Of a stretch of DNA of 64,000 nucleotides, positions 5,935 to 44,265 are shown in pieces. Origin of the DNA: Streptomyces sp. NBC_00554. GTDB taxonomy: Bacteria; Actinomycetota; Actinomycetes; Streptomycetales; Streptomycetaceae. Location of the stretch: positions 4,588,001-4,652,000 of the forward strand of contig NZ_CP107799.1 of the NCBI RefSeq assembly GCF_041431135.1, written 5' to 3'. The first letter of the stretch is position 1, and the number at the start of each line of letters is the position of its first letter. The position numbers and the translations under genes were made by a program. Below the pieces are notes generated by a model, which was not told the DNA's origin, ran no database searches, and saw only the letters and a list, made by a program, of their open reading frames with translations.

Positions 5935-7017
5935 TCATCCAGCGCCCTGAGGTGTGCCCAGCGGGGGCGCCGGAATGCCGCCCGCGTCCAGGTAGGACTG
6001 CGGGGGGTTGAGGCGCTGGCCCGGGAAGCCGCCCTTCTCGTACTTCAGGAGCTTCTTCGCCTTCTCCGGGTCCGTCTCGCCCTCGCCGTACGCCGGGCAG
6101 AGCGGGGCGATGGGGCAGGCTCCGCAGGCGGGCTTGCGGGCGTGGCAGATGCGGCGGCCGTGGAAGATCACGTGGTGGGAGAGCATGGTCCAGTCGCTCT
6201 TCGGGAAGAGCGCGCCGACGGCCGCCTCGATCTTGTCGGGCTCCGTCTCCGCGGTCCACTGCCAGCGGCGGACCAGCCGCTGGAAATGGGTGTCCACGGT
6301 GATTCCGGGGCGCCCGAACGCGTTGCCGAGCACCACGAAGGCGGTTTTGCGGCCCACGCCGGGGAGCTTGACGAGGTCTTCGAGGCGGCCGGGGACCTCG
6401 CCCCCGAAGTCGTCCCTCAGCGCCTTGGAGAGCCCTATCACCGACTTGGTCTTGGCCCGGAAGAACCCCGTCGGACGCAGGATCTCCTCGACCTCCTCCG
6501 GATTGGCCGCGGCCAGGTCCTCTGGGGTCGGGTACTTGGCGAAGAGCGCCGGAGTCGTCTGATTGACCCTCAGGTCGGTCGTCTGCGCCGACAGGACGGT
6601 GGCGACGACCAGTTGGAAGGGGTTCTCGAAGTCGAGCTCCGGGTGGGCGTACGGGTACACCTCGGCGAGTTCGCGGTTGATGCGGCGGGCTCGGCGTACC
6701 AAGGCGGTGTCTGGCGCGGGGGCCTTCTGCGGGGGCTTGGCAGGAGTGGCCTTTTTGGCGGACTGCGCGGGCTTGGCGGGGGTGGCCTTCTTGGCGGCGG
6801 CCGACTTCCTGGTCGTAGCCGTCGCCTTCTTGGGAGTCACTTTCCCGGGCGTCGCCTTCTTGGCGGGCGTCGCAGCCGTCACCTTCACCGGCACCCCCTT
6901 TGCTCCCTTTGTCGTTTTCTTGGTACCGTCCGTGGGCTGTTCGCCCACAGCAGAATCGCGACGTACAGCCACCCGCCCAGCCCCCTTGGCCTGTGCTCTC
7001 ACCGGCGTTTTGGACAC
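5935..7017 (-). CDS. nth: Endonuclease III with a long Lys/Ala/Pro-rich N-terminal tail
   Basis: The C-terminal 250 residues are a complete endonuclease III, a base-excision-repair DNA glycosylase/AP lyase. The helix-hairpin-helix reads [14 protein letters not shown] with the catalytic Lys, followed by the catalytic Asp in [10 protein letters not shown]. The [4Fe-4S] ligands follow the C-x6-C-x2-C-x5-C spacing in [17 protein letters not shown]. The first 110 residues are different: low-complexity KKATP/AKK motifs repeat several times, as in histone H1-like tails. The family is usually 210-260 residues, so at 360 this protein is unusually long. The start is taken at a GTG (7017) with no strong ribosome site; the true N-terminus could be further in. 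Confidence 0.9.
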
Positions 7018-7224
7018 CCGGCCAGCCTAAAGCCCGGCACTGACATCCGCCCCGGACCCATGAGATCAGCCCCCAATTGGCCCCCTGCCGCACTGCCCGG
7101 GACACCAGTGCGGCAGACTTGTGACTGATCACACTGTTTGGACCGTCCGGCAAGATGGGGAACACGGTCCCCTGGTACCAAGGGGGAGCAAGATCCCCTG
7201 AGCAGGTCGACAAGGAGAGAACTC

Positions 7225-19870: not shown

Positions 19871-19944
19871 CGGGGTGTAGCGCAGCTTGGCAGCGCGCTT
19901 CGTTCGGGACGAAGAGGTCGTGGGTTCAAATCCCGCCACCCCGA
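19871..19944 (+). tRNA. tRNA-Pro (anticodon CGG)
   Basis: A complete cloverleaf: acceptor CGGGGTG with CACCCCG, D stem GCGC, anticodon stem CTTCG/CGAAG around TTCGGGA (anticodon CGG at 19905-19907), five-base variable region, T arm GTGGG-TTCAAAT-CCCGC, discriminator A. CCA is not encoded. The 3' half is the attachment site of the mobile region and remains intact, so the tRNA should still work. Confidence 0.96.
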
Positions 19945-19947
19945 CAG
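19903..19947 (+). other. attL core (45 bp, 3' half of tRNA-Pro)
   Basis: The 45 bases from the anticodon loop through three bases after the tRNA are repeated exactly at 39582-39626 (attR). A diverged copy with six changes lies at 22284-22328. Exact tRNA 3'-end duplication is the signature of tyrosine-integrase elements. Confidence 0.95.
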
Positions 19948-19995: not shown

Positions 19996-20025
19996 AGTGG
20001 TTTCCGGGGGTCTCTTGGGAGAAAT

Positions 20026-20056
20026 CTGGGAGAAGATCTTGGACTCCCTCTCCCAG
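20026..20056. repeat. att-proximal palindrome, copy A
   Basis: Inverted repeat CTGGGAGA ... TCTCCCAG, 79 bases after the attL core. It aligns base for base with 22408-22438 and shares CTGGGAGAAGATCTT with 39467-39488. It could be an integrase arm site or a terminator. Confidence 0.65.
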
Positions 20057-20482
20057 ACGTCGCCCAACGACGCTCATGCAACAGCTCGCGCGAACAACCG
20101 TCGGAAACGATGGGGTACATGGCCAACTGGCCAACGAAGGTTCGTCGACGCACCCAATGTGCACCCGCAGGGGCCTCAGCGCGGCGCCGCAATGGCGCAC
20201 ACCAACTGGCGGAGCGGTAGAAACCTCCCTCCCCATCAAGGTCCGCACACGACCTGGGCGCGCGCCGACAGGTGGGAGAACCCGCTGCGGCTGGGACGGT
20301 CGGCACGGATGAGTGCACCGCGGACTAGCGGATCTACGGCCACAGGAGAGTCTGCGATTCCAGTGCCACAATGCAGTGGAGGAGCTACGCTAGCCGCCCA
20401 GGATCTACATGTAGCTCTTTTCGAGAGTCTCGCGATCCTCTATTTTTGCATCCATGTCGACTCGCGGGGGGAATCCGAATCG

Positions 20483-21610
20483 ATGACGAAGATTATTTCC
20501 ATCTTTAACCACAAGGGCGGGGTCAGTAAGACCACGACGACCTTTAACTTGGGTTGGATGCTCGCAGAACTCGGGAAACGCGTAATCATGGTTGACGCGG
20601 ACCCGCAAAGCAATCTCACTGGTGTCGCACTCGGCATGGTTGAACCCCCTCAGCCTGACATCTCGGATGACGCCCAAAGCGAGCGATTCTCTGCGACTCA
20701 GGTAGAAAAAGACGATTTCTTCGAACATAACACCGAGAAGACGCTCTATGGCGCATTGAAGCCAGCGTTTGAATCCGAACCGCGCCTTCTAGAACCAGTC
20801 GACTGTATCGAAATTCCGGAGCGACCCGGCCTCTACATTCTCCCCGGACATCTTCAGCTTGGGGAGTATGAAGTTTCTTTGAGTATTGCCCAGGAACTCT
20901 CGGGGTCCCTTGTCGCTTTGAAGAATATTCCAGGCGCTTTCCACTATCTAATTCATCAGACCGCTGAAGCCCTTGACATCGACTACGTTTTGGTCGACAT
21001 GAGCCCCAGCCTTGGGGCTCTCAACCAAAATATCGTCTGCTCCAGCGACCTGCTATTTGTACCCACCTCGCCCGACTTCTTCTCCATTATGGCTCTCCGC
21101 TCTCTGGCACGGGTTCTACCGCGGTGGAATAGGTGGGCGATCTCCGCCAGCGATAACGAGGTTCTGAGGACTGCCACCTACGCCTTCCCGGCCCCAAAGC
21201 TACGGTACGCGGGGGCAGTGATCCAGAGGTATCGCCTTTATAGGGCTCCCACACAAGACAACCCTTATGGCGACCCCACGGGCCCATTCCAGCAATGGAT
21301 CGATAAGGTTTCTGACGCGCTTCGCGACACCTTCGTTCCCGCACTTAACTCTTCCGGCCTCCTCCTCCCAAAGAGCGTCTATTCTGAAGCTGGAATGTCT
21401 GAGGACCTCGTACTAGGAAAGATTCAGGAATTCAACAGCCTGTTGCCGAAGTCTCAAGACCATCGCGTACCGGTCTTTGCGTTGACACCTGACCAGCTAA
21501 ATCAAGCGGGAGTCGTACTTCAGGGTTCCCTGCGGCAGATCGAAAGCCTTCGAGTAATTTTTCGAGATATCGCGGACAAGATCGTAAAGATTGCGGCGGC
21601 ACAGGGGTAG
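20483..21610 (+). CDS. ParA-like (AAA_31) ATPase
   Basis: A 375-residue ParA/MinD-type ATPase. The deviant Walker A is NHKGGVSKTTTTFN (about residues 9-22), followed by MVDADPQSNLTG and VLVDMSPSLGAL, all typical of the family. The C-terminal third is longer than in plasmid ParA (usually about 250-300 residues). No parB or centromere repeat is nearby. The ATG at 20483 has GGGGGGA ten bases upstream. Seven bases separate its stop from the HEPN-like gene, so they form an operon. Base composition and codon use are less GC-rich than in neighbours, a sign of transfer. It may regulate or sense for the HEPN partner rather than segregate DNA. Confidence 0.85.
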   Translation: MTKIISIFNHKGGVSKTTTTFNLGWMLAELGKRVIMVDADPQSNLTGVALGMVEPPQPDISDDAQSERFSATQVEKDDFFEHNTEKTLYGALKPAFESEPRLLEPVDCIEIPERPGLYILPGHLQLGEYEVSLSIAQELSGSLVALKNIPGAFHYLIHQTAEALDIDYVLVDMSPSLGALNQNIVCSSDLLFVPTSPDFFSIMALRSLARVLPRWNRWAISASDNEVLRTATYAFPAPKLRYAGAVIQRYRLYRAPTQDNPYGDPTGPFQQWIDKVSDALRDTFVPALNSSGLLLPKSVYSEAGMSEDLVLGKIQEFNSLLPKSQDHRVPVFALTPDQLNQAGVVLQGSLRQIESLRVIFRDIADKIVKIAAAQG

Positions 21611-22445: not shown

Positions 22446-23960
22446 CTACTGACGCATTCTCAGACGCGCACGCAAAAGGTCGTTAAGCACAGCCACCGGA
22501 GACGTCGGGCACATCGCCAGTCGCGCATCGAGCGCTGCCTCCCACTCAGTGGTGAGAGCCGCCATCAGGTCCTCGCGCATCTGCCGAGTGATGTGCGAGT
22601 AGCGCGCCTGCACCGATCCGTCGATGTGCCCCATCCGCTCATCCATCAGCTTCGGTGGCGTGCGGAACCCCTCCATTCGCGTCTTGTGCGTGTGCCGCAG
22701 CCCGTGAGGAGTCAGCCCCTTCGCAATCGGCGCCCAGCACGCATCGGCCCGCGCTTGCGCTCCTCTCCCCCGCGCCGGCACACCGGGCCAGGGATCGGCG
22801 AGCACGGGCACGGGGCGCGCCTCCTGCGGAGCCTTCTTCGGGTACCAGCCAGAGGCAGCGGGCGTGAAGAGCCACGTGGCGAACCCGTTCCGCCTCCAGT
22901 GCGCGGCCTGGTCGACGGCGCCCCCGCCGCGGGTGAAGCCGAGTGCGTCGATGGCTTCGCGCACTCGGGCTTTGGTTGACTCGGCTACCGCGTCGGGCCG
23001 GTTTAGGACGTTGGACACGGTGCCCGTGGAGACGCCCGCGCGTCTCGCAACGTCCACCACCTTCGCTCCGGTCTCCCCCGTCCGGGAGACTCCCTGCCCA
23101 CGGAACATGTACGTCTTCCCGTGGCACGGGCAGGGGCTCGGTTGGGTGCGAGCTATGTGTCCGGCCCAGAGGCGAGGGAGCCAGGCGGGGGCGTCGATGG
23201 TGCGGTAGCTGTCGTCTTTGGGAGGGCAGCGCTCGAACTCTCCCGAGTCGAGTTCGTAGAGCTGCCATTCCACGCGCACGGCTGCGGGACGAAGGAACTC
23301 GGTCTCCAGCCCCACGATTTCGGCCCAGCGCATACCTGTGTAGCCCTTGGTGACGATGGCGACGAACTCGTCGTCGCGCCCGGAGAGGAGCGAGGCGCGT
23401 TCGGCGATGAGAAGGATGCCGAGTGGATCGGTGACCACCTTTTCCGGTCCGCGGTCACGCGAGCGGCCGGCGCGCTTGCCCCTGCCACGGCGTTTGGTTG
23501 CCGGGTTGGAGCTGATGAGTTCTTCGTCCACCGCGTCTTCCAGGACCAGGTGGAGGGTGCCGCGCCACGTCTTCACGCTCGATACGGCGTACAGGGCCCT
23601 TTCCTTCTTGTCCCAGACGTCGACGTCCGCGCGCTGGATTGATGCGAGCGGGCGCTCCTCGAACTCCGGGAGTAGATGCTCTTCGAGGTGGCGCCGGTAG
23701 TTCTGCATCGTTGATGCGGCAAGGTCTTGCGCCGCGTACCAGCGTGAGGCGTACTCGCCGAATGTGATCTGTCCGGACGCTGGGTCCTTCCATCTGCCTG
23801 AACGGACCTTCGCTTCCTCCGCATCGGCTGCTTGCTTGGCTTCGCGCTTCGTGCGGAAGCGGATTGTGTCCCCGTTGTCGTCAACAACGGTTCCGTACTT
23901 GCCTGTTGAGATCTTGTAGCGGCCACGCCAATACGCGCCGCGGTCCTCCACGAACCCCAT
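22446..23960 (-). CDS. int: Tyrosine integrase with inserted LacI-type HTH
   Basis: A 504-residue site-specific recombinase that integrates and excises the element at tRNA-Pro. An N-terminal AP2-like arm-binding part and a SAM-like core-binding domain (about 65-160) precede the catalytic domain. Catalytic residues: Arg211 in YTGMRWAEI, Lys248 in PKDDSYRTI, His419 and Arg422 in TPHGLRHTH, His445 in RMGHID, and the nucleophile Tyr454 in RYSHITRQ. Between Lys248 and His419, residues about 299-345 form a LacI-family helix-turn-helix (VARRAGVSTGTVSNVLNRP), so the catalytic domain is longer than usual. The ATG at 23960 begins MGFVEDRGAYW. xis lies upstream on the same strand. Confidence 0.95.
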   Translation of the reverse strand: MGFVEDRGAYWRGRYKISTGKYGTVVDDNGDTIRFRTKREAKQAADAEEAKVRSGRWKDPASGQITFGEYASRWYAAQDLAASTMQNYRRHLEEHLLPEFEERPLASIQRADVDVWDKKERALYAVSSVKTWRGTLHLVLEDAVDEELISSNPATKRRGRGKRAGRSRDRGPEKVVTDPLGILLIAERASLLSGRDDEFVAIVTKGYTGMRWAEIVGLETEFLRPAAVRVEWQLYELDSGEFERCPPKDDSYRTIDAPAWLPRLWAGHIARTQPSPCPCHGKTYMFRGQGVSRTGETGAKVVDVARRAGVSTGTVSNVLNRPDAVAESTKARVREAIDALGFTRGGGAVDQAAHWRRNGFATWLFTPAASGWYPKKAPQEARPVPVLADPWPGVPARGRGAQARADACWAPIAKGLTPHGLRHTHKTRMEGFRTPPKLMDERMGHIDGSVQARYSHITRQMREDLMAALTTEWEAALDARLAMCPTSPVAVLNDLLRARLRMRQ

Positions 23961-24029: not shown

Positions 24030-24350
24030 TCAGGCTGCGTTCCGGGCTCGCCGCGGGCGCCGTGCCCGGAGCTGCACTACAGGTGCTCCCGGGGAGGCGT
24101 ATGTGCGTCGGCGAGTGGAAGTGGCCCTGTTCTCCTGCGTGTTCGTCTGGTCGGGGCGTTCCTCAAGAATGCGGAAGATCTCCTCCACATGGTCCGCGGT
24201 GAAGCGGTAGCCGCTGCCACCCCGGATGAACGGGATACGGCGCCGCCTCGCCTGTTCCTTCACCCACCACTCCGAGCAGTCGAGCGCCTCAGCGATTTCG
24301 GCGGGCGAGTACGTCGGGGGAAGGCGGTGGTTCTTCTGACCCGAGGTCAT
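24030..24350 (-). CDS. xis: Excisionase-like HTH protein
   Basis: A 106-residue protein whose first 65 residues form a MerR/excisionase-type winged helix: YSPAEIAEALDCSEWWVKE, then RRIPFIRGGSGYRFTADHVEEI. The C-terminal tail is Arg/Thr-rich and disordered. Adjacent to int on the same strand, it should direct the integrase towards excision. The ATG start lies just downstream of the iteron region, which might therefore also affect its transcription. Confidence 0.85.
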   Translation of the reverse strand: MTSGQKNHRLPPTYSPAEIAEALDCSEWWVKEQARRRRIPFIRGGSGYRFTADHVEEIFRILEERPDQTNTQENRATSTRRRTYASPGAPVVQLRARRPRRARNAA

Positions 24351-24410: not shown

Positions 24411-24627
24411 TCCGCTACTTCCGCTACCTCCGCTACCGCCCTGGTCAGGGGCATGATCGAAGTAGCGGATAGAGGTGGCGGTAGCGGATAAGTCCGCTAC
24501 CGGCCCCGGGTGGTGTCGCGGGACCGGTAGCGGATGGGGTAGCGCGGGTAGCGGATGAATCCGGGCTTGCCGCTACCTTTTCTAGGCCTCTGACCTGCTC
24601 GGTAGCGGAGGTAGCGGAAGTAGCGGA
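24411..24627. repeat. GTAGCGGA iteron cluster (candidate replication origin)
   Basis: Eleven exact copies of GTAGCGGA in both orientations: reversed at 24411, 24420, 24429 and 24493; forward at 24462, 24481, 24527, 24548, 24602, 24611 and 24620; plus a partial reverse copy at 24570. The outer triplets have an exact 9-bp spacing and face each other. The cluster lies beside the replication genes and extends into the last codons of the DUF3631 gene. Iterons next to the replication protein are typical origins; the assignment is inference. Confidence 0.8.
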
Positions 24628-25748
24628 CTCTCAGGGGGTGGGGGGCAGTACCGCTCCCACGCGTCGTGCAAGTCCGCGGCGTAGTAGCCCTTCATCACGC
24701 TGCCGCCGGTCTTGATGTTCCGCGCCGTGACCGGGGTGTTGTCGGCGGTCATGTACTCGCGCAGCATCCGCGCCAGGCCGCGGGCATCGAGGGGCTTGCC
24801 GCTCATGTCCGCCCACGGTGCCTCTTCGAGGCTGTGGAGGCGGTCCAGGACGGCGACGGTGGGCAGGCGGTCGATGCCGTTGAACACGGCATCGCGCAGG
24901 TCGGTGAGCAGCCGGATTCCGATGCTGCCCTTGTCCCCGACCTTGGCCGCGTTGACCAGTTCCACGCACGCGGTGCGGGCCCGCTCCGGCCACTCGCCCC
25001 CGGCAGCGTCCGCCACTGCGAGCAGGGGTTCCCAGACGTCCGCGGGCCGGTCGGTGACCTCCGGTGGCAGCGTGGGAAACACCCCGTCGACCAAGTGGCG
25101 TACGGATTCGGCCCAGTTGGAGAGCCGGTCGCGCAGCGCGTTGCCTTCCTTCTCGTGGATGCGCTGCCGGTAGGGCTCCACGTACTCGTTCCGTGCGCGG
25201 CGGCGCATGCGGATGATGACGGAGCGGGTGAGGATCGTGTCCGGCAGTGAACCGAGTCCCGCCATCGCGACCGCGCAGTACGAGGGGAATTCCTGTACCT
25301 GCTGATTGGCTCCGTCTCCGACGCAGCGCCACATGCCCACTCCGCGGCGGTGTCCGGCGTTCAGGAAGCCGCGGAGGGGTTCGTTGTCTCCGGCCTTGGG
25401 CCCGAACACGGTGTCCACTTCGTCGAAGAGGATCGTGGGGCGGGTCTCCAGGGTGGACACGGCGCGGAAGAGCACCGAGGCGGATGCGTTGGCCGCAACG
25501 AGCGGCTTGGGCACCAGGGTTTCGATGATCTCCAGGGCCCGTGACTTCCCCGATCCGGGTTCCGGCGAGAGGAATGCGATGCGGGGGGTGGCGTCGAAGC
25601 TGTCGAGCAGGTGGGCGTGTGCGTTCCACAGCGTGACGGCGACGTAGGCGGCTTCGAGGGGGAAGACGTTGAAGCGTCGGTGGAAGGCTTCGACCTCATC
25701 GAGCAGGGCCGAGCCGTCGGTGGGGTGTGCCGGCGGTTTGGTGGTCAT
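24582..25748 (-). CDS. DUF3631-domain replication protein (AICE)
   Basis: A 388-residue P-loop ATPase starting MTTKPPAHPTDG. The Walker A is SPEPGSGKSRALE (about residues 56-68), Walker B PTILFDEVDTVFG (about 95-107), and the C-terminal half is the helical DUF3631 region with DARGLARMLREY. In AICEs this helicase-like protein acts with Prim-Pol in replication of the excised circle. The ATG at 25748 overlaps the upstream stop by four bases. The C-terminal Pro/Leu repeats come from the iteron DNA that the gene end overlaps. Confidence 0.9.
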   Translation of the reverse strand: MTTKPPAHPTDGSALLDEVEAFHRRFNVFPLEAAYVAVTLWNAHAHLLDSFDATPRIAFLSPEPGSGKSRALEIIETLVPKPLVAANASASVLFRAVSTLETRPTILFDEVDTVFGPKAGDNEPLRGFLNAGHRRGVGMWRCVGDGANQQVQEFPSYCAVAMAGLGSLPDTILTRSVIIRMRRRARNEYVEPYRQRIHEKEGNALRDRLSNWAESVRHLVDGVFPTLPPEVTDRPADVWEPLLAVADAAGGEWPERARTACVELVNAAKVGDKGSIGIRLLTDLRDAVFNGIDRLPTVAVLDRLHSLEEAPWADMSGKPLDARGLARMLREYMTADNTPVTARNIKTGGSVMKGYYAADLHDAWERYCPPPPESPLLPLPPLPSRSEA

Positions 25749-26098
25749 GCCGCGGCCCTCCCTTCCTGGGTGGTGCGGAGCGGGCATGCGTCGCGGTGGG
25801 CGGTGTGGTCGTCGATCAGAGCGAGCACGCGGGCTTTGCCGACGGCGCTGCGGTCCCAGCCGCACAGGCATTTCGAGGTGGCGGTGGGCACGGCGCCGCG
25901 CGGTGCACAGATGTACAGCCACGCGACCGGGTACCGGCCGTCGCCCTGCTGCGGGTCAGAACGAAGAGCCGAAATGACGCCTTCGGCGCCGCCCTTCGAC
26001 TCGCCCACAGCCGGACCGGGATCGGCTTGTACGGCGGCGCGCGGACCGGAGGGAGTGGAAGGGAGGCTCTTCAGTGGGGAGCGGGGAGGGGTGCTCAT
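25745..26098 (-). CDS. Small Cys/His protein between Prim-Pol and DUF3631
   Basis: A 117-residue protein; the first 45 residues are Pro/Ser-rich, and the C-terminal part has SKCLCGWDRSAVG and DDHTAHRDACPLR, a C-x-C ... H-x2-H-x3-C arrangement able to bind zinc. It is coupled on both sides by four-base overlaps, so it is surely translated with the replication genes. No family can be named with confidence. Confidence 0.75.
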   Translation of the reverse strand: MSTPPRSPLKSLPSTPSGPRAAVQADPGPAVGESKGGAEGVISALRSDPQQGDGRYPVAWLYICAPRGAVPTATSKCLCGWDRSAVGKARVLALIDDHTAHRDACPLRTTQEGRAAA

Positions 26099-28377: not shown

Positions 28378-30423
28378 TCAGTCGCCGGACCGCTTTCCGT
28401 CACGCTGGGTGACGGCTGTGGTGATGTCGGCGCGGGCGATGCCGCGACGGGTGGTGCCCTTGCCCTTGTCGGTGGTGCCCCACACGTCCTGCGCCGTGAC
28501 GCCGTGCGGGCGCAGGTTCGAGGTGACTGTTTCGGCCTTCCACCCGCCGTAGACCTCCGGGCGCAGGGTGGCGAGGCGGGCGGCGACCTTCTCGTTCCAC
28601 ACCTTGTCCTCATCGGCCGCCACGACCTTGAGGATGTCCGCGAGCAGGTCGAACGCGGGCTCACCGCTCTCGGGTTCCTGACCAATCGCGTGACCGGTGA
28701 CGTTGCCGTAGGCCTCGCGCATCTTCCGGGCCCGGACAACGACTTGTTCGGCGCCGACCGCGTCGACGAACGCGGACGCGACGATGCGGGGGTCGTCGCC
28801 CTCACCTGCCATCCAGCAAATGCCGCGGTCGGTACGGGAGAACATCGTTGCCCGGTACCCGGCCTTGTACATCGAGGTACCGAGGACCATGTCGTTGGCA
28901 GGCTGGCCCATCACCTTCAGGCAGAACCGCAGCACCGCGTTGGCGGAGATGCCGGTGGGAAGCGACTTGGCGTCCGGCCGCTGCGTGCCGAACAGCATCG
29001 TCATCCCCAACGCGGGACCGCGCTTGCCCAAGTCGGTGGCGATCTCTTCGATCTCCGCGCCGTACTTCTCGTGCTCGAAGGGCACTTGGCACTCATCGAA
29101 CCCGGCCACGATCGGGTGCAGACCGAGCGACTTGTCGTTCGCCAGCTCCGGAGTCACCTTCGACTCCGGGCAGCGCGAACGCGGCAGCGACTTGATGACC
29201 TTCGCCCGCCTGCGCAGTTCCGCCCGCAGCTCCCGCAGCGAATCGAGGACATAGAGGATGTCTTCATCCTCGTCACCCGCCCGGTAGCGGTGGCAGACCG
29301 GCTCCAGAGCGCCGAAGTCGCCAGTCCCCTTGAAGTCGAACGCATACAGCGCCGCGCGCGGATCCAACGCGGCGATGAGCAGGAACAGCCGCATCAGGAA
29401 CGTCTTTCCCATGCGCGGGACGGAGCCGACGACGACCGAGGCGAACATCAGAGTGACGGCGACGTCGCCCATGCGCTGGTCGTTGCCGAACACGACCGGC
29501 TTGAACAGGTCCACGGTGCCCGACTTCAACAGCGGCCACGCGGGCTTGGTCGTCTCGTTCATGGGCTTGTCGCCCACCCACAGGATCAGCCGACCCTCAT
29601 GCTCGGTCGGGTCGGCCGACGGCCACACACAGCCCACCTTGCGACGCAGCCCGGAGGCCAGCGGCTTGCGGGCCTCCATGATGTCCTCCGGGGTGACGCC
29701 CCAGGGAAGGTCAAGGTCGGCGCGGTAGCCGGGGCCGTCGCGGGTGATCTCGCTGGTGAAGCGCATGCCGTTCATGTCGCCGCCCTTCTTGAGGGCGGCC
29801 GACAGCTTCGCGTTGCCGATGTTGTCCAGTGCACGCAGCACGATCGGACCGGTGAGCTTCTGGATCTCCGTCTTCAGCACCGCGGGCCCGATCACGGGGT
29901 GGTCCTGGGGGGCTCCCCAGAATCCGGCGACCAGGACCGCGGCTGAGGCCAGGACCGCGAGCCAGCCGGGTGCCATGACGTACATGGTCAGCGCGAATGC
30001 ACTGCCGAAGATGAGCGCCACGGTGGTGACCAGCACGCGCAGCCTCACGCGGCTGTCCCGCTGCCGGGACAGCTTGAGGTATTCGGCGGTGTTCTCCTTG
30101 TAGACCTCGTAGGCGCGCAGCGGGGCGCCCTCGGCATCCCACACCCACCGGTTGGTGTCCTTCACCAGGCGGGCCGTGCCGCGCGGCGCGTTCAGCGTGA
30201 GCTGCAACGCGTACCAGGGGGTGCGGATGCCGTGGAAGGCGGTGGCGTAGAAGGCGTTGGCGGTGGCCCGCTGCGTGGTGGCCACGAACCCCGGCTTCGA
30301 GGTCAGCCACGTCGGCAGGATCGGCCGACGCTTGTACGTGGTGATGCCGGGCGAGGGAAGGTCGGGCCGGTCGACCGGTCGGGCGACCGAGTCGGGCGAC
30401 CGAGTCGGGCGACACCTCATCAT
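28378..30423 (-). CDS. traB: TraB-type FtsK/SpoIIIE DNA translocase (frame disrupted near the N-terminus)
   Basis: The pump that moves double-stranded element DNA between hyphae. This frame encodes 681 residues: two hydrophobic helices at about 127-170, Walker A VVGSVPRMGKTFLMR (about 338-352), Walker B PIVAGFDECQVPF (about 430), and a C-terminal winged-helix region (about 600-660). The natural N-terminus is in another frame (30391-30595); removing one 13-bp copy at 30378-30403 joins the two exactly. The ATG ATG at 30423/30420 could still allow internal initiation of a shortened protein, but no ribosome site is evident. Whether transfer works is open. Confidence 0.9.
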   Translation of the reverse strand: MMRCRPTRSPDSVARPVDRPDLPSPGITTYKRRPILPTWLTSKPGFVATTQRATANAFYATAFHGIRTPWYALQLTLNAPRGTARLVKDTNRWVWDAEGAPLRAYEVYKENTAEYLKLSRQRDSRVRLRVLVTTVALIFGSAFALTMYVMAPGWLAVLASAAVLVAGFWGAPQDHPVIGPAVLKTEIQKLTGPIVLRALDNIGNAKLSAALKKGGDMNGMRFTSEITRDGPGYRADLDLPWGVTPEDIMEARKPLASGLRRKVGCVWPSADPTEHEGRLILWVGDKPMNETTKPAWPLLKSGTVDLFKPVVFGNDQRMGDVAVTLMFASVVVGSVPRMGKTFLMRLFLLIAALDPRAALYAFDFKGTGDFGALEPVCHRYRAGDEDEDILYVLDSLRELRAELRRRAKVIKSLPRSRCPESKVTPELANDKSLGLHPIVAGFDECQVPFEHEKYGAEIEEIATDLGKRGPALGMTMLFGTQRPDAKSLPTGISANAVLRFCLKVMGQPANDMVLGTSMYKAGYRATMFSRTDRGICWMAGEGDDPRIVASAFVDAVGAEQVVVRARKMREAYGNVTGHAIGQEPESGEPAFDLLADILKVVAADEDKVWNEKVAARLATLRPEVYGGWKAETVTSNLRPHGVTAQDVWGTTDKGKGTTRRGIARADITTAVTQRDGKRSGD
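30378..30413. repeat. 13-bp tandem repeat within traB
   Basis: The unit GTCGGGCGACCGA (plus strand) occurs at 30378 and 30391, followed by its first ten bases at 30404. Because 13 is not a multiple of three, the extra copy shifts the reading frame of traB. Confidence 0.9.
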
Positions 30424-30855: not shown

Positions 30856-31239
30856 TCAAGCGGCGCGCTGTTCCTCGGCATTGATGCACAGACCGCAGAT
30901 GCCGTACGAGCGCGGGATGCAGTACCCGACATCAAGCAGGCAGCGGGGGCAAGTGCGGCGGGCGAGCATCGCCAACGCGAGCGCACCCCACTTGCGCGAC
31001 GTCATCGGCCGGACCGGCTTGGCCAGGTCGAGGCGGTAGAGGTAGGCGACGCGGACGTTGCCGCGCCGCCGGTTGATCCGCATCACCTGTGCCGCGATCG
31101 GCTGACCGCCCGGACGCAGGCCCTTGGCGCGGAGCTGACGGCGGGTGGCGAGGTCGTCGGGGGCCAGGCGCCACGGGTAGGTGGGGATCCCATGGAGCGC
31201 GCCGGTCGGGTCGTAGCACTTGCCGAAGACGGCGGGCAT
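30856..31239 (-). CDS. RRQRL-motif zinc-binding protein
   Basis: A 127-residue protein with LATRRQLRAKGLRPGGQP (about residues 30-47), the family's name-giving region, and a C-terminal cluster CPRCLLDVGYC and CGLC for zinc. It is a frequent, uncharacterised AICE and plasmid protein. Its ATG shares a base with the stop of the upstream DUF2637 gene (TGATG). Confidence 0.8.
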   Translation of the reverse strand: MPAVFGKCYDPTGALHGIPTYPWRLAPDDLATRRQLRAKGLRPGGQPIAAQVMRINRRRGNVRVAYLYRLDLAKPVRPMTSRKWGALALAMLARRTCPRCLLDVGYCIPRSYGICGLCINAEEQRAA

Positions 31240-32234
31240 CAGGCCGCGTCCGCTGTCTCAGCCTCGGCGGTGTCCACAGAGTGCAGCGGGCGGCCGTCGG
31301 CGCGCTCGGTCTTCAACTGGTCGCGGAGCTTGCGGGCGTTGGCGGCCGAGCAGTGAACCGAGGTGCGGATGGCCTCCGCGTTCAGCTCGGCGTCCGTCCA
31401 GCCCGCGGTGGCCGCGCGAGCCTCGGCGAGCAGCTCCTCGAAGGTGCGCTGCGCCGTGCCCTTGGCCTTGGACGGGGTCCGGCGGGGCGGGCGCGGCTTG
31501 AGGTCGGCCGGATCGGCCGGCGGCTTGGCCACCGGGGGCGGCACGGGCGTGCCCTGCTCTGTGGCGGGGGCGAGTTCGCCCATGCGCAGCATCACGCGCT
31601 CGCGCCGCGGCGTCTTCGAGCGCCACTTCCAGCCGAACCGCTGCCGCAGCTCCGCGCGGGCCAACTGCCGTTCCCGCTCCCGCCTCAGTGCCTCAGAGTA
31701 GGAGGTGACCTCCCACAGCGTCATGCGGCGCCACAGCGCGAAGGTAGAGGGGAACGCGAGCAGCCAGCGGGAGAACCGGATCTTTTCCATGCGGCGGCCG
31801 GTCGCGGCGCCGATCCGTACGGCGTAGATGTGCGCGCCGATCTCGGAGAACACCACCCACAGCAGCGGCATGGTGCCGTGCGCGACCTTGGCCGACAGGG
31901 AGTGTCCGGCCGCGACGTTCAGTCCGCAGGTGATCAGGGTGAGGATCCAGGGCACGAACCGCACCCAGGCGAGCGCCATGTCCATCCGGATCAACAGCAG
32001 GTTGGCGACGGTGAACACCGGGATGGACACGTCGATACCGACAGGGAGCATCCACGGGGAGCTGAAGCCCCAGGTGGCAGCGGCCTCGGACACGGCGTCG
32101 AAGGAGGAGATCAGACCGAGTGCGCCGACTCCTGCCGCGGCGAGTGCGCCGATACCGGCGAGCCCCATTTCCGGGCGGGTCAGCGGCGGCACCCCGGACA
32201 CGGGCGCCTCGGGGGCGGGGGTCGTGGCAGTCAT
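31239..32234 (-). CDS. DUF2637 membrane protein
   Basis: A 331-residue protein with about four hydrophobic helices in the first 150 residues (for example FVPWILTLITCGLNVAAGHS), then a charged region and Pro-rich linker, and a C-terminal helical part (TFEELLAEARAATAGWTDAE) that looks like a DNA-binding HTH (IRTSVHCSAANARKLRD). DUF2637 proteins are typical of AICEs and Streptomyces plasmids. A role in transfer or its control at the membrane is inference. It overlaps the upstream gene by four bases. Confidence 0.85.
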   Translation of the reverse strand: MTATTPAPEAPVSGVPPLTRPEMGLAGIGALAAAGVGALGLISSFDAVSEAAATWGFSSPWMLPVGIDVSIPVFTVANLLLIRMDMALAWVRFVPWILTLITCGLNVAAGHSLSAKVAHGTMPLLWVVFSEIGAHIYAVRIGAATGRRMEKIRFSRWLLAFPSTFALWRRMTLWEVTSYSEALRRERERQLARAELRQRFGWKWRSKTPRRERVMLRMGELAPATEQGTPVPPPVAKPPADPADLKPRPPRRTPSKAKGTAQRTFEELLAEARAATAGWTDAELNAEAIRTSVHCSAANARKLRDQLKTERADGRPLHSVDTAEAETADAA

Positions 32235-39581: not shown

Positions 39582-39626
39582 TTCGGGACGAAGAGGTCGT
39601 GGGTTCAAATCCCGCCACCCCGACAG
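39582..39626 (+). other. attR core
   Basis: Exactly the same 45 bases as attL (19903-19947). The 5' half of the tRNA is not here, though CGGGTGTAG at 39556 faintly resembles the tRNA start. Confidence 0.95.
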
Positions 39627-40224: not shown

Positions 40225-43200
40225 GTGGAGGCCTTGAGTTCCGACTCAGGGGCACGCATTGCCTTCGCGGAGCGTCTCGCGCTGCTCTACAAGGAGGCCG
40301 GCAATCCTCCCCTCAGTCGCGTGGCCGAGGCGGTCGTACGGCTGCATCGGGTCGATGAACGCGGGCGGCCCGTGCGGGTGTCCGCCCAGCGGATCAGCGA
40401 CTGGCGACGGGCCAAGAACGTACCTGCCCAGTTCGCCGCGCTCGCGGCGGTGCTGCAGATCCTGATACCCGATGCGCGGCGCCTGCGGCCCGTGCCGGTG
40501 TCCCCGGGCCTGTACGACCCGGTCCAGTGGCAGCGCCTCTGGGAGCGAGCGGTTGCCGTCCCCGTCGGCGACCGTGCCCCGGCGTCCGCGGAAGCGGAGG
40601 AACACGCCGCGGTCGAGGCCCCGGCCGTGTGTCCGTACCGGGGGCTGGCTTCCTACCGTCAGCAGGACGCCCGGTGGTTCTTCGGCCGTGAGCGGAGCAC
40701 GGACGCTCTCATCGCTCAGCTCGACGCAGCGGAGAAGACCGGCGGCCTTGTCATGCTCGTGGGTGCCTCGGGGGCGGGTAAGTCGTCTCTGCTGAACGCC
40801 GGTCTGGTGCCCGCGCTGCGCAACGGGGCCCGAGGGGACGACGACGGCCGGGCAAGGGTGGTTCTGCAGCTCGTGCCGGGCGGCGATCCGCTCGCGGAGC
40901 TGACCCGGCGGATCCCTGAACTCGCGCAGGTCCTCTCCACCGCGAGGGACGAGGAGGACGGGGAGGAGCACCCGGCCGAGGACCCCTGTACTCCGCGTTT
41001 CGCGCACGAGGTGCGGATGGCCGTCAGCGCGTGGGCCCGGCGCGAGGCGTCCTCCGCCGACCCTCCGGTCGTCATCGTGGACCAGTTCGAGGAGGCGTTC
41101 ACCCTCTGCTCCGACGAGGCTCAGCGGCGCACCTTCATCCAGCTCCTGCACGCCGCGTGCTCGCCCGCCGCCCCCGCGGACGCCGGTGTCCCCGTCGACC
41201 CGGCCCCCGTGCTCGTGGTCCTGGGCATACGCGCCGACTTCTACGAGCAGTGTCTCGGGTATCCCGAACTGGCCGACGCGCTCCAGCACCGGCACATGGT
41301 GCTCGGGCCGCTGGCCACCGCGGAGCTGCGCGAGGCGGTGACCGGGCCGGCCAAGGCCGTGGGTCTGGAACTGGAGCCGGGCCTTGCGGAACTGATCGTC
41401 CGGGAGCTGAGCGCCGACGGCCCGCGTGGGGCGCACGACGCGGGGGTGCTGCCGCTGCTGTCCCACGCCCTGCTCGCCACCTGGCAGCGGCGGAAGGCGG
41501 GCAGGCTCACGCTGGCCGGCTACCGCGCGGCGGGCGGGATCCAGGGGGCGGTGGCGGCGACCGCCGAGCAGGCCTGGTCCGGCCTCGATCCGGCGGCGCG
41601 TACGGCCGCGAGGCTGCTCCTGCTCCGGCTGGTCCGGCTGGGCGAGGACACCCAGGCCACCCGGCGGCGGGGGACGCGGCGCCAGCTGGCGGAGGAGTCG
41701 ACGGACCCCGGCAAGACGGAGGAATCGCTCGAGGCGCTGGTTCGCGCCCGGCTGGTGACGCTCGACGCGGAGACCGTGGAGATCACCCATGAGGCGCTGC
41801 TGCACGCCTGGCCGCGCCTGCGCGACTGGATCGGCGAGGACAAGAACAGCAACCTGCTGCGCCAGCAACTGGAGGATGACGGCAGGGCCTGGGAGGGCTC
41901 GAACCGCGACACGTCACTCCTCTACCGGGGTTCCCGCCTGGAGCAGGCCCGTGGCTGGGCGAAAACCGCCGGGAACACCTTCCTGACCCGGAGCGCGGTG
42001 GAGTTCCTGGCCGCTTCGGTCAGGCTGCGCAAGCGCACGGTCTGGATCTTCCGCGGCGCGGTGTCGGCCCTGGTCGTCCTTGCGATGCTGGCCGTCGGTT
42101 CGGCGGTGGTCGCGTGGCAGCAGCGGAACGACGCGGTGTTCGAGCAGGTGATCGCCGAAGCCGATCGCGTCCAGTACACGGACCCGTCGTTGTCGGCTCA
42201 ACTGGACCTGGTGGCCCACCGTTTGCGGCCGGACGACGAGGGCGCGAACAACCGGCTGATCTCGATCGTGAACGCGCCGCTGGCCACACCGCTCCTCGGG
42301 CACACCGGCGCCGTGTACCTCACCTCGTTCAGCCCGAGCGGACTGATCCTGGCCACCGCCAGCTACGACCGGACCGTGCGGCTGTGGGACGTATCGGACC
42401 GGACTCGGCCCAAGCCGCTGGGCAAACCCCTCACCGGCCACACGAGTTGGGTGAGCAGCGCGGTCTTCAGCCCCGACGGCAGCACTCTCGCCACCGCTGC
42501 CGACGACGGCACGATCCGGCTGTGGGACGTGCGGGAGCCCGGCCACCCGCGCCCGCTCGGCACGCCCCTGACCGGCCATGACGGCACGATCTACCTGATC
42601 ACCTTCAGCCCGGACGGACACACTCTGGCGTCCGCGAGCGAAGACCACACCGTCGGTCTGTGGGACGTGCGCGATCCGAGCCGGCCGAAGAAACTCGGCG
42701 CTCTGACCGGCCACACCGACGCCGTACGCTCCGTGGCGTTCAGCCCGGACGGACGGACGGTGGCGGCCGGGGGCGACGACAACACGGTCAGGTTGTGGAA
42801 CACGGCCGATCCGCGTCATCCGGTGCGGATCGGCACGGTGCTGACCGGACACACGAGCCTGGTGCACTCCGTGGCCTTCAGCCCCGACGGACGTACCCTC
42901 GCCAGCGGCAGTGCGGACAACACCGTCCGGCTGTGGGACGTCGCCGACCCCCGTCACGCGAAACCGCTCGGCGCGCCGCTCACCGGCCACACCGGTCCCA
43001 TCTGGTCGGTGGCCTTCAGCCCTGACGGAACCATGCTCGCCGCGGCCAGCCAGGACAGTACGGCGAGTCTGTGGAACGTCAGCGATCCGGCGTACCCCTC
43101 GCAGGTCGGCGAGCCGCTCGCGGGGAGCAGCGGTGAGATGTACGCCCTGGGATTCAGCCCCGACGGACGGACCCTGGCCACCGGGAGCGGCGACAACACG

Positions 43201-44265
43201 GTCCGCCTGTGGTCGATACCGACATCGGACATGATCGGCCGCATCGGAGCGTTCCGCCCGGACGGGAAGGTGCTCGCCACGGCCGCGCGCGACGAGAAGG
43301 TCCGGCTGTGGAACGTGGAGGATCCCGACCGGCCCGTGTCGCTGGGCGATCCGTTCATGCCCGGGGAGGGTGAGCTGCGTGAGCCGGTCTTCTCCCCCGA
43401 CGGCCGCATACTCGCGGTGGTGACCGGAGACCGCGCGGTACAGCTGTGGAACGTCAGCGACCCGTCCCGGCCCGTCGCCTACGGAGAGCCCGTCGCCCTG
43501 CGGACACGGTTCGCGGCCGCGCTGACCTTCAGCCCGGACGGGCGCACGATGGCGACCGCCTATGACGACCGCACCATCCAGTTGTGGAACGTCAGTGACC
43601 CGTCCCACCCTGTCCGGCTCGGCGCGCCCCTGACCGGCCACAAGGGGTACGTCAACTCCCTCGCCTTCAGCCCGGACGGCCGTACGTTGGCCAGCGGCAG
43701 CGCGGACGTCACCATCCGGCTCTGGAACGTGGCCGACCCACGCCACGCGACACTGCTCGGCGCACCCCTCACGGGACATCTGGGGCCCATCAACGCACTC
43801 GTCTACAGCCCGGACGGCCGTACGTTGGCCAGTGGCAGCGACGACAACACGGTCCGCCTCTGGGACGTCACCGACTCCTCCAAGGACCGGGCGCCCCGGC
43901 TGGAGTCCACGCTCACGGGCCACACCGAATCGGTGGTGTCGCTGACCTTCAGCCAGGACGGCACCAGGCTGGCGAGCGGCGGCAACGACAACACGGTCCG
44001 GCTCTGGGACGTCACCGTGCCGTCCAGGGCCACCCCGATCGGCCAGTCGATGAGCCCCAACGCCAAAACCGGCAATTTCCTTTCGTTCAGCGCCAAGAGC
44101 CACACGCTCGGCGTATCCAGCGGAGCCGATACCGTCCGGCTCTGGAACCTCGACGTCGACGAGGCCATTCGCCGTATCTGCTCGACCACTCGGGGTGTTC
44201 TGACACCGGACAAATGGCACGAGTATCTGCCCCGGCTCTCGTACGAGTCTCCGTGCGACCAGTAG
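40225..44265 (+). CDS. nSTAND1-type NTPase with 14 WD40 repeats
   Basis: A 1346-residue signal-transduction NTPase. Residues 1-90 are a helical HTH-like region; CPYRGLASYRQQDARWFFGR (about 136-155) introduces the nSTAND1 P-loop domain with Walker A VGASGAGKSSLL (about 179-190) and Walker B VVIVDQFEEAF (about 281-291). A single hydrophobic helix lies at about 601-628. From about residue 690 there are 14 WD40 repeats ending in RLWDV or RLWNV, enough for two seven-bladed propellers; repeats 7 to 9 and 14 are degenerate. STAND NTPases act as ligand-triggered switches in signalling and defence. The start is a GTG. It lies just outside the AICE. Confidence 0.9.
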   Translation: MEALSSDSGARIAFAERLALLYKEAGNPPLSRVAEAVVRLHRVDERGRPVRVSAQRISDWRRAKNVPAQFAALAAVLQILIPDARRLRPVPVSPGLYDPVQWQRLWERAVAVPVGDRAPASAEAEEHAAVEAPAVCPYRGLASYRQQDARWFFGRERSTDALIAQLDAAEKTGGLVMLVGASGAGKSSLLNAGLVPALRNGARGDDDGRARVVLQLVPGGDPLAELTRRIPELAQVLSTARDEEDGEEHPAEDPCTPRFAHEVRMAVSAWARREASSADPPVVIVDQFEEAFTLCSDEAQRRTFIQLLHAACSPAAPADAGVPVDPAPVLVVLGIRADFYEQCLGYPELADALQHRHMVLGPLATAELREAVTGPAKAVGLELEPGLAELIVRELSADGPRGAHDAGVLPLLSHALLATWQRRKAGRLTLAGYRAAGGIQGAVAATAEQAWSGLDPAARTAARLLLLRLVRLGEDTQATRRRGTRRQLAEESTDPGKTEESLEALVRARLVTLDAETVEITHEALLHAWPRLRDWIGEDKNSNLLRQQLEDDGRAWEGSNRDTSLLYRGSRLEQARGWAKTAGNTFLTRSAVEFLAASVRLRKRTVWIFRGAVSALVVLAMLAVGSAVVAWQQRNDAVFEQVIAEADRVQYTDPSLSAQLDLVAHRLRPDDEGANNRLISIVNAPLATPLLGHTGAVYLTSFSPSGLILATASYDRTVRLWDVSDRTRPKPLGKPLTGHTSWVSSAVFSPDGSTLATAADDGTIRLWDVREPGHPRPLGTPLTGHDGTIYLITFSPDGHTLASASEDHTVGLWDVRDPSRPKKLGALTGHTDAVRSVAFSPDGRTVAAGGDDNTVRLWNTADPRHPVRIGTVLTGHTSLVHSVAFSPDGRTLASGSADNTVRLWDVADPRHAKPLGAPLTGHTGPIWSVAFSPDGTMLAAASQDSTASLWNVSDPAYPSQVGEPLAGSSGEMYALGFSPDGRTLATGSGDNTVRLWSIPTSDMIGRIGAFRPDGKVLATAARDEKVRLWNVEDPDRPVSLGDPFMPGEGELREPVFSPDGRILAVVTGDRAVQLWNVSDPSRPVAYGEPVALRTRFAAALTFSPDGRTMATAYDDRTIQLWNVSDPSHPVRLGAPLTGHKGYVNSLAFSPDGRTLASGSADVTIRLWNVADPRHATLLGAPLTGHLGPINALVYSPDGRTLASGSDDNTVRLWDVTDSSKDRAPRLESTLTGHTESVVSLTFSQDGTRLASGGNDNTVRLWDVTVPSRATPIGQSMSPNAKTGNFLSFSAKSHTLGVSSGADTVRLWNLDVDEAIRRICSTTRGVLTPDKWHEYLPRLSYESPCDQ

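Follow-up and report, generated by a model that had tools for sequence, protein, structure and literature searches.

The window, by which we mean the whole 64-kb stretch of DNA that was analysed, contains a 19.7-kb AICE inserted in a tRNA-Pro(CGG) gene (19871..19945, plus strand), and this element holds the repeat array considered here. The element is bounded by two 45 bp att repeats on the plus strand, each a copy of the tRNA-Pro 3' end, at 19903..19947 (left end) and 39582..39626 (right end). A gene for a ParA-type ATPase (19997-21610, plus strand) lies between the left att repeat and the integrase gene. Read leftwards, the minus strand then encodes a DUF2637 protein (31239-32234), a TraB/FtsK-like transfer ATPase (28378..30423), a Prim-Pol protein (PF09250, 26095..27447) that is the proposed replicon primase and RepAM (DUF3631, PF12307, 24582..25748), followed by the array, an Xis-like HTH_17 protein (24030..24350) whose start lies 60 bp from the array, and a tyrosine integrase (22446..23960). 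The integrase, Xis-like protein and Prim-Pol were identified with Pfam, and the element scores 208.7 bits for PF12307 and 155.5 bits for PF09250. The RepAM open reading frame reaches 25922, and the ATG at 25748 was used for numbering. The 28378-30423 product has no Pfam match at E 0.001 and was tentatively assigned from its alignment with an annotated FtsK/SpoIIIE protein of a related locus, L005 (27% identity). Other traits expected of an AICE are clearly present: integration in a tRNA gene, att repeats, a tyrosine integrase, an Xis-like HTH_17 protein and a replication protein of the RepAM / Prim-Pol type.

The window integrase carries a LacI-type HTH (PF00356, 3.1e-13, residues 303-343) inserted ahead of its catalytic C-terminus, a motif present in six of the 124 integrases of the set, this one counted. 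Outside the element, at 42515-44002, the window features many repeated segments of 16-27 bp with spacings of, for example, 138 and 144, which probably belong to a repeat protein.

A symmetrical array at the RepAM 3' end

The array spans 24411..24627 and comprises 11 exact copies of GTAGCGGA and 12 of its core, GTAGCGG. Only one further copy of GTAGCGGA occurs in the window, at 44262 and therefore outside the element, whereas 100 dinucleotide shuffles of the window gave a mean of 1.60 and a maximum of 6 copies per 64 kb. The other GTAGCGG 7-mers of the element are three singles (23916, 27402 and 29284) that form no cluster. Each end of the array is a triplet with a 9-bp period, the left one on the minus strand (24411..24436; copies at 24411, 24420 and 24429) and the right one on the plus strand (24602..24627; copies at 24602, 24611 and 24620) within the RepAM coding region, and the tandem GTAGCGGANGTAGCGGA matches nothing in the 10.08-Mb genome except these two triplets. 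Inside them lie two opposed iterons. In the first (24462..24469, plus strand), the distance between the start of GTAGCGG and that of the innermost left-triplet 7-mer (24430) is 32 bp. The second (24570..24576, minus strand), a GTAGCGG without the final A, has the same start-to-start spacing of 32 bp to the right triplet (24602). A spacer box, GGTCA, within CCTGGTCAGGGGC (24443..24447, plus strand) has an inverted partner on the minus strand at 24591..24595, which reads TGACC within CTCTGACCTGC on the plus strand, and each box is 6 bp from the innermost 7-mer of its triplet. No clear AT-rich element was found, the lowest 25-mer in or near the window array still being 12/25 G/C. The DUF3631 open reading frame (minus strand, 24582-25922) passes through the right triplet, so that the protein ends ...PLLPLPPLPSRSEA.

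The sequence-only reading that preceded this analysis had reported eleven exact 8-mers in 217 bases, triplets of 9-bp period in opposite orientation at both ends, and a position between xis and the replication genes that runs into the DUF3631 3' end. All of this held, although the twelfth GTAGCGG (24570-24576) and the inverted GGTCA/TGACC pair had been overlooked, and the protein it called DUF3631 is here RepAM. Its proposal of a candidate AICE origin is supported by the sequence comparison described below, replication itself being inferred. Relatives without the array had been named as a refutation, and the survey did not provide one: an array was present in 196 of 197 distinct RepAM loci, window included (161/162 in a first set and 35/35 further loci), and the sole exception, L010, stops at a contig end. 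The search for equivalent arrays in related AICEs that it had recommended found them throughout the RepAM clade, and the result applies to that clade alone.

These counts rest on a scan of genome contigs, from which the best 80 of 261 loci were retained, and on genus-genome searches that added more; removal of identical loci left 162 distinct clade loci, counting the window and two plasmids. Identical loci were dropped before counting (134 to 127, others later, and 4 of 39 in the later set), the later set being 39 loci from a family-level search (19 + 20), of which 35 were new. Twenty of 120 listed DUF3631 places, all of the other clade, were left out of the sample. L113 was assigned to this other clade (55% to L171, 38% to the window), and L120, an array-bearing RepAM that is cut by a contig end and falls under the score limit, was excluded from the second-clade count. 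Within the genus of the window, RepAM was found in 117 of 392 genomes.

The 161 arrays of the first set have 7-18 sites each (median 12), always at the RepAM 3' end, and share a recurring layout: a triplet, 32 bp, an opposed site, and then, after the centre, an opposed site, 31-32 bp and a triplet. Single sites are sometimes lost, and the first interval is 44 in one large subgroup. With RepAM reading rightwards, TGACC occurs at most 20 bp before a right-hand site, at the end away from RepAM, in 152 of the 161 arrays (4 for the reversed word), whereas GGTCA occurs at most 20 bp after a left-hand site, on the RepAM side, in just 74 (10 for the reversed word). Circular plasmid records NZ_CP108827 (13,544 bp) and NZ_CP108973 (14,273 bp) feature the same module and array, which is merely suggestive of a possible array-dependent autonomous replication that remains an inference. 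An array serving as a partition site for ParA is unlikely, because these 13.5- and 14.3-kb plasmid relatives retain it while their annotated genes list no ParA.

A reverse search of 150 genomes gave 46 GTAGCGG triplet places when overlapping runs were treated as one. A DUF3631 match is present within 1.5 kb of 36 of them, and by our reading of the lists all 13 inverted triplet pairs less than 450 bp apart are among these 36. The other ten places are not near DUF3631, and five of them are longer tandem runs. For L088 and L092, whose triplets are far from DUF3631, no further sites were found within 1.5 kb. In one genome (G057, C1:1967062-1967982), a triplet pair 887 bp apart lies away from any DUF3631 match. 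In a second DUF3631 clade, a significant repeat at the DUF3631 3' end was present in just 6 of 48 loci, and no convincing array was found in 12 distant DUF3631 loci, so the claim made here is limited to the RepAM clade as sampled in Streptomyces and relatives of its family. The six second-clade loci (L165, L168, L171, L172, L173 and L178) have words such as GACGGCA or CAAGACG, and these repeats could conceivably represent another origin type.

The overlap of gene and array raised the possibility that the protein tail is itself selected. The sequence-only reading had stated that the repeat shapes the C-terminus (PLLPLPPLP) and that coding and origin functions are overlaid. The tail is correct for the window, and the overlap is real. 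However, the reading frame of rep across the first tandem pair varies among the 162 loci: 82 use one frame, 64 another and 2 the third, while the pair lies outside the gene in 4 and is missing in 10. RepAM tails differ accordingly (PLLPLPPLP, TSATSAT, LQPLQP, RYLRYL). Because one stretch of DNA is thus translated in different frames, selection on the PLLPLPPLP tail was rejected. The tail seems to be a by-product and the overlap passive, and what is conserved does not appear to be the protein tail.

Proteins that travel with the array

To associate the array with a protein, the proteins of array-bearing loci were clustered at 40% identity, TraB and integrase (Int) sequences having been collected with profiles grown from the window's own proteins. 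RepAM (126 sequences) and Prim-Pol (114) each form one cluster, whereas TraB (110) falls into 11 and integrase (124) into 8. The array words were then compared with the trees of these proteins. Among lineages, arrays are built from GTAGCGG, from GTGGCGG throughout (as in L078), from GTTGCGG/GTGGCGG mixtures, from GTAACCG (L254-L256) and from others, with the spacing kept; the later loci added GCAACCG (L296) and GTTACGG (L307) in the same kind of layout. Arrays were first labelled A, G or T, a scheme later refined to A, G, g (mostly G with 2-3 T) and K (G/T mixed), with g and K pooled for the later loci. Placed on a RepAM tree of 126 loci, the labels require 4 changes, whereas 200 shuffles gave 14.8 on average and never fewer than 12. 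For the 105 of these labelled loci that have all four proteins, the RepAM tree shows 5 changes of class, compared with 9 for the Prim-Pol tree, 8 for the TraB tree and 11 for the Int tree. The array therefore follows RepAM: the two stay together while TraB, Int and, exceptionally, Prim-Pol are exchanged.

This bears on the possibility that the 8-bp repeats are TraB recognition sequences (TRS) of a clt locus for conjugation. TraB assembles at clt by recognising 8-bp TRS repeats (PMC4170104), a length that fits, and Streptomyces clt loci hold short direct and inverted repeats (PMC3583192). Against this, the 110 TraB proteins fall into 11 clusters, and L005 and L006 share the array and have RepAM proteins 82 and 74% identical to that of the window, although their TraB proteins are only 27 and 21% identical to it. 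In each of the 196 array-bearing loci, moreover, the array is found at the 3' end of rep. A repeat that travels with its cognate TraB, as expected of clt/TRS, is not what is seen, and this very unlikely explanation was rejected.

A second alternative is that Xis/Int use the array as a set of operator or arm-type sites, through which excision or the transcription of xis-int would be controlled. The array and the xis start are 60 bp apart, and the pSAM2 integrase is known to bind repeated arm-type sites (PMC3364876). However, the 124 integrases form 8 clusters, a profile seeded on the window Xis matches only 8 of the 183 loci searched and over 4 kb separate the array from the nearer att site, all of which makes this role highly improbable. 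An additional operator role of bound RepAM is not excluded and remains possible.

A further alternative is that Prim-Pol, not RepAM, is the reader of the iterons, given that the 114 usual-type Prim-Pols are one cluster and thus mostly travel with RepAM. Prim-Pol went undetected by profile or tblastn in six loci with more than 6.6 kb upstream (L014, L031, L114, L119, L148 and L162), and Pfam analysis of 13 open reading frames from five of these (L014, L031, L114, L148 and L162) recognised one Prim-Pol (L148), one SSB domain in an open reading frame upstream in L114, and three FtsK_SpoIIIE domains. The L148 Prim-Pol, which was missed by tblastn with the window Prim-Pol and recognised by Pfam alone (1.7e-8), is a different protein, yet the locus has the usual array of GTAGCGG sites. 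L114 and L119 retain the array with no Prim-Pol detected in either, although the L119 open reading frames were outside the Pfam scan. A relative of the L148 Prim-Pol (74% identity over 82% of it) is encoded on plasmid NZ_CP107792 (L272) near a YfjI-family protein, and there ten GTTCTGTCA-type sites occupy the corresponding place. Together with the greater number of class changes on the Prim-Pol tree, L148 and L114/L119 disfavour Prim-Pol, which we consider a most improbable reader. The pairing of Prim-Pol with DUF3631 in the sequence-only reading is corrected to this extent: the C-terminal domain of RepAM, and not Prim-Pol, TraB, Xis or Int, is the likely reader of the repeats, although there are no binding data.

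A further RepAM tree was constructed from the residues before 285 only (161 rows). The refined label changes 11 times on this tree and residue 351 changes 10 times, compared with a mean of 38 and a minimum of 33 changes in 100 shuffles. The array thus seems to move with the C-terminal domain and, in part, separately from the ATPase domain.

RepAM fold and the residues that covary with the iteron

RepAM features a P-loop (GSGKS) and an LFDE Walker B motif, and AlphaFold2 modelling with 58 sequences gave a mean pLDDT of 85.8 and a pTM of 0.71. MCM subunits are the best Foldseek matches of this model, and the first eleven also include regions of AsfvPrimPol, NrS-1 and vaccinia D5. VIA-align, applied to the Foldseek candidates, aligned the model with an MCM homologue at a Z of 16.7 over 224 residues at 3.2 A. 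The C-terminal 93 residues, modelled alone (mean pLDDT 94.2), form three helices, a hairpin (343-347/350-356) and a last helix. This domain alone has no significant match in the PDB (best E 0.11), its matches including forkhead-DNA, PadR-operator and NrS-1 entries. The models therefore predict RepAM to be an AAA+ protein similar to MCM and D5 that ends in a winged-helix-like domain, from which helicase and DNA-binding activities are inferred.

An alternative role for RepAM is given by Ghinet et al. 2011 (PMC3218068), who describe RepAM proteins as predicted rolling-circle initiators with putative nick sites resembling those of the pC194 family, in which case the array would be a dso nicked by RepAM. 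An HAH (HxH) motif, present in 161 of 161 clade-1 rows, could be seen as compatible with this. However, HAH sits within a helix of the model (residues 32-50) and its first His is absent from the rows of the other DUF3631 clade, and the P-loop, Walker B motif and MCM/D5-like AAA+ modelled fold also argue against this reading. An inverted, symmetrical multi-iteron array is not known to be typical of a dso. The predicted AAA+ fold and the symmetrical array thus sit badly with the published prediction, and we regard rolling-circle replication from this array as very doubtful.

Returning to RepAM as a winged-helix-type reader of the iterons, two residues of the predicted wing hairpin covary with the third base of the iteron. 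The codons of residues 344-351 (N344 to V351 in the window) are at 24696..24719 on the minus strand. All 121 A-arrays (the three GTAACCG loci included) go with V, I or L at residue 351, 13 of the 14 pure-G arrays with F, the fourteenth reading TF, and all 26 G/T-mixed arrays with T. At residue 344, the 121 A-array loci have N, S or P and the 40 others G or T. Across 161 rows, 344 and 351 are the only columns of 363 that divide A from non-A arrays without error. Since residue 351 had already been looked at once when the G and mixed classes were refined, the fit on these rows was not blind. In the 35 later loci, which share ancestry with the earlier 161 rows, residue 351 could be scored in 28 and gave the correct iteron class in all 28 (22 A, 5 mixed, 1 G); the remaining 7 have a residue not seen before at this position, S in 5 with ordinary A arrays and P and A once each with new iterons.

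Independent contrasts are few (4/4 and 3/3 concordant) and fall below significance. Linkage could also account for part of the covariation, since the wing codons and the nearest iteron are only ~70-90 bp apart. Columns 352-372, which are nearer the array, nevertheless perform worse, with at least 11 errors, although many of these columns are invariant. A two-residue turn would pair 346:351 and 344:353, which, as inferred from the strands of the model, would place 344, 346, 351 and 353 on one face. From this sequence covariation, and without binding data, we infer that residues 344 and 351 appear to read base 3 of the iteron.

A bolder reading can be made as a single joint claim, which on balance we lean towards. 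This clade would be one of actinobacterial self-loading MCM-like initiator-helicases in which two wing residues set origin specificity, with N/S/P344 and V/I/L351 specifying A at base 3 of GTNGCGG, G344 and F351 specifying G, and G344 and T351 specifying G or T. Origins of ~12 sites would have been rewritten in concert several times, and laboratory reprogramming would need 1-2 substitutions. If true, the origin specificities of AICEs, and presumably their incompatibility groups, would be predictable from protein sequence alone.

In mixed arrays (L158, L160, L162, L211-L216 and L220-L222), the positions of T and G are nearly fixed, and a common pattern is TTT-32-G-23-G ... T-18-G-31-T-8-G-9-T, as if sites differ in role.

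A putative origin and its counterparts

Sequence comparison establishes the array, its conserved symmetrical layout, its linkage to RepAM, the covariation of residues with bases and the modelled fold. On this basis the array is likely to be the oriV of a Prim-Pol/RepAM-type AICE, the origin of a self-loading initiator-helicase, although this and replication itself are inferred. The subsequent steps of binding, hexamer loading, melting, priming and direction are likewise all inferences. In the model that we propose, excision would be followed by binding of RepAM to the iterons via the wing of its C-terminal winged-helix-like domain, with the side chains of 344 and 351 in the beta-hairpin reading base 3 of GTAGCGG. 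At the two inverted triplets, a pair of RepAM hexamers facing in opposite directions would be nucleated, and these would melt the centre of the array and become the fork helicases, while the neighbouring Prim-Pol would prime theta replication, probably bidirectional. Bound RepAM may additionally repress xis-int, whose start is so close to the array. With the end of the gene lying in its own putative origin, the two would be passed on as a single cassette, and switches of base and residue would create new specificities.

The closest known parallels are the Rep/ori system of SaPIs and the Cch2 origin of SCCmec, where an initiator helicase is encoded directly upstream of a short-iteron origin. 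There, the C-terminal domain of the helicase recognises the iterons, two hexamers are apparently bound and a primase is encoded in the same element (PMC7581432). The SaPI-type trait of short repeated sites directly downstream of the initiator gene is seen here, where they also lie within its end. In contrast, the SaPI and SCCmec helicases are DUF927 or Primase_Cterm/D5-like rather than DUF3631, their primases are also other proteins, and in the RepAM system the iterons enter the gene, in symmetrical triplets of 9-bp period, and the element has a TraB-like transfer gene. A relation such as that between base 3 and residue 351 was not found in the bearing parts of PMC7581432 on SaPI/SCCmec.

Among Streptomyces replicons, plasmid pWTY27 requires RepA, the Prim-Pol protein RepB and a non-coding iteron region of 300 bp in which 8-bp repeats occur in both orientations. 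Replication was lost when this region was deleted and returned when it was put back, RepA binds the region in EMSA and footprinting experiments, and bidirectional replication was inferred (PMC3583192). It differs in its iteron (GTGGGAAC), and its RepA (GU226194) is called a 'hypothetical protein' whose membership of DUF3631 is not established. AICEs of the pMEA300 type share RepAM (DUF3631) with the window; 12 surveyed AICEs have repAM immediately beside the Prim-Pol gene (PMC3218068), and the word 'iteron' is absent from the main text of that study. The archaeal plasmid pRN1 encodes ORF904, which combines an AEP primase, a helicase and a C-terminal winged helix. As in the window, its putative origin is directly downstream of the replication gene, but this is one fused protein and the putative origin is a 100-nt stem-loop without iterons (PMC4234260).

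No description of a RepAM iteron origin was found in the open-licence literature searched; the primary pMEA300 papers are outside it, so absence from print is not shown. The literature matches to GTAGCGGA that were examined look unrelated by title. RepAM/Prim-Pol AICEs gain a concrete candidate origin, and an initiator-helicase model is offered in place of the rolling-circle prediction. The loci also represent a natural data set in which the DNA specificity of an initiator appears to have been switched repeatedly along with an entire array, such that the open question of how initiators and multi-site origins co-evolve becomes testable with few mutants, and vectors for actinomycetes could gain origins of predictable compatibility.

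A further comparison is provided by the plasmid NZ_CP107792 (L272), which resembles the window in gene order, array position and inverted sites with 9-bp tandem pairs, but differs in that the Prim-Pol partner is annotated as YfjI family and the iteron is of another sequence. Its array (6792-7047) is symmetrical and has boxes TGACCTGC and GCAGGTCA in opposite order. A box common to two families of replication proteins suggests a common or host factor.
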